Below are positions 23,779 to 25,763 of a stretch of 36,618 bases of DNA, in pieces. Made by a program: the position numbers and the translations under genes. Source of the stretch: Candidatus Hermodarchaeota archaeon. Its GTDB lineage: Archaea > Asgardarchaeota > Hermodarchaeia > Hermodarchaeales > Hermodarchaeaceae. The stretch is taken from assembly GCA_016839365.1 (NCBI GenBank), contig JAEOUH010000028.1:1-36618 (forward strand), read 5' to 3'. Position 1 is the stretch's first letter; the number at the start of each line of letters is the position of its first letter. A model generated the notes under the pieces. The model did no database searches, had not been told where the DNA came from, and saw only the letters and a list, made by a program, of their open reading frames with translations.

Positions 23779-23808
23779 GTTGAACACCTCAAAAAATGGG
23801 TAGAATGG

Positions 23809-23880
23809 TGCGCTGTCCGGGATTTGAACCCGGGCACCCAGCGTGGCAGGCTGGAGTCCTAGCCACTAGACCAACAGCGC
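23809..23880 (-). tRNA. tRNA-Gly(GCC), no intron
   Basis: Cloverleaf: acceptor GCGCTGT with ACAGCGC, D stem GTCT/GGAC, anticodon stem CCAGC/GCTGG around loop CTGCCAC (anticodon GCC), T-arm CCGGG-TTCAAAT-CCCGG, discriminator A and CCA encoded at 23806-23808. The minus strand has a TATA-like AATAAAAAGGG at 23904-23914, about 27 bases upstream. It precedes rnp4 by 27 bases with a T6 tract between. Confidence 0.95.
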
Positions 23881-23914: not shown

Positions 23915-23967
23915 GGTTTTGGCTACACCTCTCTCACCCATTGAAACCGGTCCACCAGCTTATGGAA

Positions 23968-23979
23968 AGACTTAAGCGA
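23968..23979 (+). promoter_or_regulatory. TATA box for tRNA-Gly(TCC)
   Basis: AGACTTAAGCGA about 30 bases before the mature tRNA 5' end at 24005. Confidence 0.4.
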
Positions 23980-24004: not shown

Positions 24005-24107
24005 GCGGTCGTGGTCTAGTGGTTAAGATATCGGCCTTCCACGCCGATTACCCGGGTTCGAACGCCAGCACATACCCCGTGGCTGACCGAACATCCCGGC
24101 GACCGCA
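24005..24107 (+). tRNA. tRNA-Gly(TCC) with a T-loop intron
   Basis: Acceptor GCGGTCG (24005-24011) pairs with CGACCGC (24100-24106); discriminator A at 24107, CCA encoded at 24108-24110. D stem GTCT/AGAT, anticodon stem TCGGC/GCCGA with loop CTTCCAC (anticodon TCC). The T-stem CCGGG/CCCGG is present, but the T-loop is interrupted after TTCGAA by 31 nt (24063-24093). Removing these gives TTCGAAT, a normal T-loop, and a 72-nt tRNA. A T6 run at 24117-24122 follows. Confidence 0.92.
24063..24093 (+). other. Non-canonical BHB intron in the tRNA-Gly(TCC) T-loop (59/60)
   Basis: Around the insert a strict bulge-helix-bulge forms: the T-stem as outer helix; 3' bulge CAT (24092-24094); central 4-bp helix TTCG (24057-24060) with CGAA (24088-24091); 5' bulge AAC (24061-24063); inner helix GCCAGC/GCTGAC with one C-A mismatch. 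Cutting after the second base of each bulge, the archaeal splicing endonuclease rule, removes exactly 24063-24093 and restores TTCGAAT. Confidence 0.88.
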
Positions 24108-24116
24108 CCATTTCTC

Positions 24117-24864: not shown

Positions 24865-24938
24865 GGGCCGGTGGTCTAGTTGGTTATGACGCCGTCCTGA
24901 CACGGCGGAGGTCCCGTGTTCAAATCACGGCCGGCCCA
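24865..24938 (+). tRNA. tRNA-Val(GAC)
   Basis: Acceptor GGGCCGG/CCGGCCC, discriminator A at 24938, CCA encoded at 24939-24941. Anticodon stem CCGTC/GGCGG (one T-G pair) with loop CTGACAC, anticodon GAC. T-arm CCGTG-TTCAAAT-CACGG. The D stem has a T-T mismatch at 13:22. No intron. Only 5 bases separate the CCA from tRNA-Phe, so the two are one transcript. Confidence 0.93.
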
Positions 24939-24946
24939 CCACCTGT

Positions 24947-25056
24947 GCCGAGGTAGCTTAGCCCGGGAGTAGCCTGACCTGAGGGTTATGCGCTGCTATT
25001 CCGAAAGCGCGGGACTGAAGATCCCGTTGTCGTGTGTTCAAATCACGCCCTCGGCA
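24947..25056 (+). tRNA. tRNA-Phe(GAA) with a D-arm intron
   Basis: Acceptor GCCGAGG (24947-24953) pairs with CCTCGGC (25049-25055), discriminator A, CCA encoded at 25057-25059. Anticodon stem CGGGA/TCCCG with loop CTGAAGA (anticodon GAA). T-arm GTGTG-TTCAAAT-CACGC. Between acceptor and anticodon stem are 56 nt instead of about 20. Removing 36 nt leaves TA-GCTT-AGCCCGGGA-GAGC-G, a normal archaeal D-arm. Confidence 0.92.
24970..25005 (+). other. Non-canonical intron in the tRNA-Phe D-arm (about 22/23)
   Basis: Best fit: central helix CGGG (24964-24967) with TCCG (25000-25003, one G-T pair), 5' bulge AGT (24968-24970), 3' bulge AAA (25004-25006), inner pairing AGC/GCT. Cutting after the second base of each bulge removes 36 nt and restores a GCTT/GAGC D-stem. 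The outer helix is weak, so the motif is relaxed and the exact boundary could shift by a few bases. Confidence 0.7.
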
Positions 25057-25099
25057 CCACCCCTTTTGATTAGAGTGGTGAGTAGGCAAAGGAGGATTA

Positions 25100-25661: not shown

Positions 25662-25763
25662 TGGACCGGCCGGGATTTGAACCCGGGGCCTCCGCCAGTT
25701 GGGGCTTCGCTCAAGTGGAGGGAAGCTTGCCAAGACGGCGATCTACCGCTGATCTACCGGCCC
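25662..25763 (-). tRNA. tRNA-Ala(GGC) with a 37/38 intron
   Basis: Acceptor GGGCCGG/CCGGTCC includes a G3-T70 pair, the universal alanine identity element. D stem GATC/GATC, anticodon stem CCGTC/GGCGG, spliced loop TTGGCAT (anticodon GGC), T-arm CCGGG-TTCAAAT-CCCGG, discriminator A, CCA encoded at 25659-25661. It begins 10 bases after the eL37 stop on the same strand, with no room for a promoter, so it is probably co-transcribed with the Sm-eL37 genes. Confidence 0.93.
25698..25727 (-). other. Canonical-position BHB intron in tRNA-Ala (37/38)
   Basis: 5' bulge CAA, central helix TTGG/CCCA with one T-C mismatch, inner helix GCTTC/GAAGC, 3' bulge ACT. Cleavage after the second bulge base removes 30 nt and yields loop TTGGCAT. 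Confidence 0.82.

Follow-up and report, generated by a model that had tools for sequence, protein, structure and literature searches.

Position 59/60, in the T-loop, is one of the listed insertion points for introns of archaeal tRNAs (PMC4090602). The tRNA-Gly(UCC) gene that we describe here shares with these non-canonical introns the position, the size class, the bulge-helix-bulge (BHB) motif and a protein-based mode of splicing, which in our case is predicted from the genes present, and it differs from them in its host, the Asgard lineage Hermodarchaeota. Within the Asgard archaea, one report gives introns in 92-95% of the tRNA genes of Atabeyarchaeia and Freyarchaeia, often at non-canonical positions (PMC11291895); as in our genomes, non-canonical introns are many there, often several per tRNA, and the Hermodarchaeota are a different Asgard class.

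On the side of the enzyme, (alpha-beta)2 endonucleases cut both strict and relaxed motifs at various tRNA positions (PMC6379350), and in Aeropyrum pernix the residues K44-P45-R46 have been named in a loop that is described as specific to Crenarchaea (PMC6379350, PMC12397907). The endonuclease genes of our source genome are like the A. pernix system (PDB 3p1z; PMC6379350, PMC12397907) in the triad of the alpha subunit, in a K-P-[KR] loop and in having a second, non-catalytic-looking subunit; the EndA beta of the source genome resembles M. jannaschii EndA (1a79) more than it does A. pernix beta.

The literature that we searched, in which few subscription journals were covered, yielded no paper that treats the tRNA introns of Hermodarchaeota or T-loop introns in Thermoplasmata. 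Among archaea, the Asgard lineages are the nearest relatives of eukaryotes, and the type of their endonuclease and their intron load therefore bear on the origin of eukaryotic tRNA splicing. What this locus adds is the lineage, the probable repeated and exact losses of the intron, and a view of how broadly T-loop introns are spread across archaea.

Anatomy of the gene and its intron

The window is the whole stretch of DNA that we analysed, 36,618 nt of a Candidatus Hermodarchaeota archaeon genome (contig JAEOUH010000028.1), and all positions in Table 1 refer to it. A sequence-only reading of this DNA had proposed that tRNA-Gly(UCC) has intact acceptor, D, anticodon and T stems and a T-loop interrupted by a 31-nt intron with a strict BHB motif. 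Sequence and fold agree with that proposal in coordinates, length, motif and all of the stems.

Table 1. Features of the tRNA-Gly(UCC) locus in the window, with the basis of each call where one is given.
Feature	Position	Strand	Basis or remark
tRNA-Gly(UCC) gene	24005-24110	+	encoded CCA included; acceptor, D, anticodon and T stems intact
5' exon (acceptor 5' strand, D arm, anticodon arm)	24005-24062	+	ARAGORN cloverleaf of the spliced form
Anticodon TCC	24038-24040	+	within 5' exon
T-stem 5' strand CCGGG	24052-24056	+	within 5' exon
T-loop TTCGAA (5' exon part)	24057-24062	+	
Central BHB helix, exon strand TTCG	24057-24060	+	fold; pairs with 24088-24091
5' bulge AA/C	24061-24063	+	predicted cut after 24062
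Intron, 31 nt, CGCCAGCACATACCCCGTGGCTGACCGAACA, T-loop position 59/60	24063-24093	+	fold; exactly this stretch absent from intronless orthologues
Central BHB helix, intron strand CGAA	24088-24091	+	fold
3' bulge CA/T	24092-24094	+	predicted cut after 24093
3' exon (T60, T-stem CCCGG, acceptor CGACCGC, discriminator A, encoded CCA)	24094-24110	+	
BRE/TATA-like box GGAAAGACTTAAG, about 30 nt upstream	23964-23976	+	orthologue alignment; function inferred
tRNA-Gly(GCC), intronless divergent neighbour	23806-23880	-	marks orthology

Folding the whole precursor, a check that the same reading had suggested, gives a cloverleaf with an extended T-stem. The T-stem (CCGGG/CCCGG) continues directly into the 4-bp TTCG/CGAA helix, which lies between two 3-nt bulges (AAC and CAT) on opposite strands at the exon-intron borders, and below this strict BHB the intron body forms an imperfect hairpin. 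When the 31-nt insert is shuffled, the full central helix arises in 2.7% of cases, and the helix together with as many inner pairs in 0.16%. The fold energy of the precursor is unremarkable on its own (z = -1.78), and the case for an intron therefore rests on the motif and on the comparison with related genomes.

Excision at the predicted cuts leaves TTCGAA joined to T, and ARAGORN recognises the product as a perfect tRNA-Gly(tcc) of 75 nt including CCA. Before splicing, the gene has no ARAGORN match, even when introns are allowed, and the Rfam tRNA model gives a partial match only (33.3 bits), the end of which falls inside the intron; the warning that default tRNA finders could miss or mis-call the gene was thus justified. 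This is of practical value, as without splicing the genome would seem to lack that tRNA. A self-splicing group I or group II intron is ruled out by size, the insert having 31 nt where a catalytic core takes hundreds of nucleotides, and no Rfam intron family has a match within the window. The insert is a real archaeal-type BHB intron; its place, the T-loop, is unusual but has been seen before.

Orthologous loci with and without the intron

We compared the source genome (G000) with seven relatives from the same Hermodarchaeota family (G001-G007), in which the gene was found by DNA similarity and not by a motif search. In four of the relatives (G001, G005, G006 and G007) this site is occupied by an insert of 30-31 nt whose body has diverged and whose BHB is kept. 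In the other three (G002, G003 and G004) there is no insert and the locus reads TTCGAATCCCGG; their junction, GGGTTCGAATCCCGG, is exactly the predicted spliced sequence, so that the insert is absent to the base. The T-loop intron of tRNA-Gly(UCC) is thus kept by five of the eight family genomes, and natural intronless genes agree with ARAGORN that cutting by the endonuclease rule restores TTCGAAT, as had been claimed. That this is one locus follows from its surroundings, since G000-G004 all retain the pair formed with the divergent tRNA-Gly(GCC), and the protein genes on the flanks are shared as well. An upstream box of the GGAAA-CTTAAG type is similar in intron-bearing and intronless orthologues when these are aligned. 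At the level of sequence, the orthologue comparison is strong evidence for reading the insert as an intron, and having both forms of the gene at one locus provides a clean natural test of intron loss.

Loss or gain of the intron

To place the intronless genomes we used a tree built from 15 proteins of the window (3283 columns, a paralogue-contaminated gene having been removed); an earlier tree of 10 genes was discarded, as paralogue matches of one methyltransferase (31-34% identity) had distorted it. The 15-protein tree groups G000 with G002, and G001 with the pair G003 and G004. The two single-loss trees that we tried, in which the three intronless genomes are united, are rejected by the AU test (p = 3e-5 and 5e-5), and the next best tree, which is not rejected (AU p = 0.07), likewise requires two losses. 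With single loss rejected, two or more exact losses of the intron within the genus are probable. The sister genus carries the intron as well, and it was probably present in the common ancestor of the family.

A different history, with the intron and its splicing mechanism unchanged, is repeated gain at one site, in G000, in G001 and in the sister genus. T-loop introns do recur at the same site in many tRNAs and lineages, and the G000 intron taken alone shows no clear similarity to its counterparts in G001, G006 and G007 (p = 0.08-0.13; p = 0.12 for G000 and G001). The G000 and G005 introns, however, are similar beyond shuffles (none of 1000 reached their similarity), as are most of the orthologue pairs, and repeated gain needs three events where loss needs two. 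We regard repeated gain as unlikely, if still worth keeping in view, and prefer repeated loss. Exact loss suggests that a DNA copy of the mature tRNA took the place of the gene, a route that we infer only.

Transposition of introns between tRNA genes was also considered, by comparing 32 T-loop intron cores with shuffles. Orthologous introns resemble each other; across tRNA types a mild excess (mean z about 1.8) is confined to Gly(UCC) with Gly(CCC) and to Gly(UCC) with Leu(UAG), a likeness too weak for a claim of transfer.

T-loop introns in other tRNAs and other archaea

Searching for the motif and then checking for a T-stem gives 31 T-loop introns in the eight family genomes, spread over six tRNA types: Gly(UCC), Gly(CCC), Lys(CUU), Arg(CCU), Leu(UAG) and Leu(CAA, assigned by eye). 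Before the T-stem check, the pattern has 54 matches and a reversed control pattern about 20. All four central pairs are present in 29 of the 31 introns and three of four in the other two, a count that is descriptive and not proof, since the search itself demands most of the central pairs; the exception is the Gly(UCC) set, which came from DNA similarity. No convincing T-loop intron was seen in family tRNAs with TTCAAAT loops.

The tRNA-Leu whose anticodon we read by eye as CAA has its T-loop intron in all eight genomes (for example G000:C27:10495-10532; loci L230, L232, L233, L235, L237 and L242-L244) and apparently one or two introns more. ARAGORN gives no match to it even after T-loop splicing.

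The sequence-only reading had held that T-loop introns are uncommon and known notably from Thermoproteales. This view has to be revised: a pattern scan of GTDB species genomes returned at least 116 matching stretches, mostly from Thermoplasmata, Asgard archaea and DPANN. About 103 of the 116 matches listed give a tRNA in ARAGORN after splicing, a lenient count in that ARAGORN was allowed a further intron; one match, in Saccharopolyspora, is clearly false. Among the matches listed, 30 are from Thermoplasmata and 17 from Woesearchaeota, and others are from further DPANN, from Thaumarchaeota and from the Asgard classes Hermod, Jord, Sigyn, Heimdall, Thor, Loki, Hel, Njord, Odin and Baldr. Judged by these matches, T-loop introns are common, being widespread across many archaeal groups, and the Gly(UCC) intron is of the ordinary archaeal kind, set in a position and a lineage that have been described less often.

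An apparent bacterial case, a Gly(UCC) gene with a T-loop intron in the 'Deltaproteobacteria' chromosome CP070735.1, was rejected. There (CP070735.1:1688001-1696000) the tRNA-Gly pair sits on a Hermodarchaeota-like piece that ends at a run of N, beyond which other genes follow, and the scaffold is probably a chimeric MAG assembly.

Splicing machinery and the proposed route

The source genome has two EndA genes and encodes RtcB, so that both an endonuclease and a ligase are of host origin. EndA alpha (186 aa, contig C43) can be aligned over almost its whole length with its A. pernix counterpart (3p1z; 6e-46) and keeps the Y/H/K triad; its loop, GFYGKPLGIRKPK (GIRKPK), places K-P-K against A. 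pernix K44-P45-R46. EndA beta (196 aa, C19:54932-55522) has no His at the expected catalytic position. With the triad in alpha and not in beta, and a specificity loop in which the conserved Lys precedes Pro/Val and Lys/Arg, here Pro and Lys, the predicted enzyme is an (alpha-beta)2 endonuclease, which answers the question of subunit type raised by the sequence-only reading. That reading had also taken the intron to imply an endonuclease of broad specificity. The implication does not hold, as a strict BHB needs none at any tRNA position, and because the motif here is strict a specificity-loop enzyme is not strictly needed for the Gly(UCC) intron; a loop-bearing enzyme is nevertheless predicted to be encoded.

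EndA was found in all 58 relatives searched, in two copies in most, and each of the 20 Asgard alpha subunits that we sampled (L178-L197) has the triad and the Lys equivalent to K44. The signature of the 'Crenarchaea-specific loop' (Lys, then Pro and Lys/Arg) is conserved across these Asgard subunits, an observation that may already have been published elsewhere. The EndA beta gene adjoins a tRNA-Arg(CCU) gene with a T-loop intron of its own (G000:C19:54932-55600), in some genomes with a second intron, and six of the eight family members (G000, G003-G007) share this arrangement.

In the route that we propose, the gene would be transcribed as a precursor containing the 31-nt T-loop intron, in which the T-stem would stack directly on the TTCG/CGAA helix to form the strict BHB. 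The (alpha-beta)2 endonuclease, assembled from both subunits, would cut each 3-nt bulge between its second and third bases, and RtcB would join the exons to give TTCGAAT in a normal tRNA reading GGA codons. We hold this reading with high confidence: the genome's single known tRNA-Gly(UCC) gene would yield a precursor spliced in this way, and its intron, probably ancestral to the family, has probably undergone exact loss on two or more occasions in the genus. A broader idea is offered tentatively, at somewhat less than even chance: that a recurrent copy-back route acts on archaeal tRNA introns in an intron-rich lineage with a loop-bearing (alpha-beta)2 endonuclease, having removed the same T-loop intron base for base at least twice independently in a genus where up to six tRNA types still have T-loop introns at the one position.

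It is also conceivable that the insert inactivated the gene, leaving a decayed relic while another tRNA reads GGA codons, and with the source genome 83.7% complete a second copy might be missing from it. Exactly one Gly(UCC) gene was found in each of the eight genomes, however, in a tRNA inventory that comes from searches and may be incomplete. A second intact copy, which had been named in advance as grounds for abandoning the splicing interpretation, was found neither in the source genome nor in its seven relatives, family MAGs that are 74-86% complete and from any one of which a copy could be missing. The stems of the gene are all intact, its upstream box recurs in the orthologues, and in four relatives an insert at this position retains the splicing motif although the body of the intron has diverged, all of which makes a relic very improbable.

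An assembly or sequencing artefact deserves even less credence: every family genome is a fragmented MAG, but the arrangement is present in independent MAGs of two genera, in six tRNA types of the family and in many other archaea. Just as implausible is a functional tRNA that keeps an enlarged T-loop, the insert never being removed, for which we found no supporting evidence and against which stand the disturbance that it would bring to the contact of D-loop and T-loop, the varying length and sequence of an insert whose cut-site motif is kept, and its precise absence from three orthologues.

Other tRNA genes in the window

Further tRNA genes lie close by. tRNA-Val(GAC) (24865-24941, + strand) looks perfect in ARAGORN and is absent from the Rfam tRNA scan (at gathering score) and from the whole-genome tRNA search. 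tRNA-Phe(GAA) (24947-25059, + strand) has a 36-nt intron in the D arm (24970-25005), probably at 22/23 and with a relaxed BHB, and ARAGORN recognises this gene when it is spliced and not when unspliced. In tRNA-Ala(GGC) (25662-25763, - strand) the intron, of about 30 nt, is at the canonical position 37/38.
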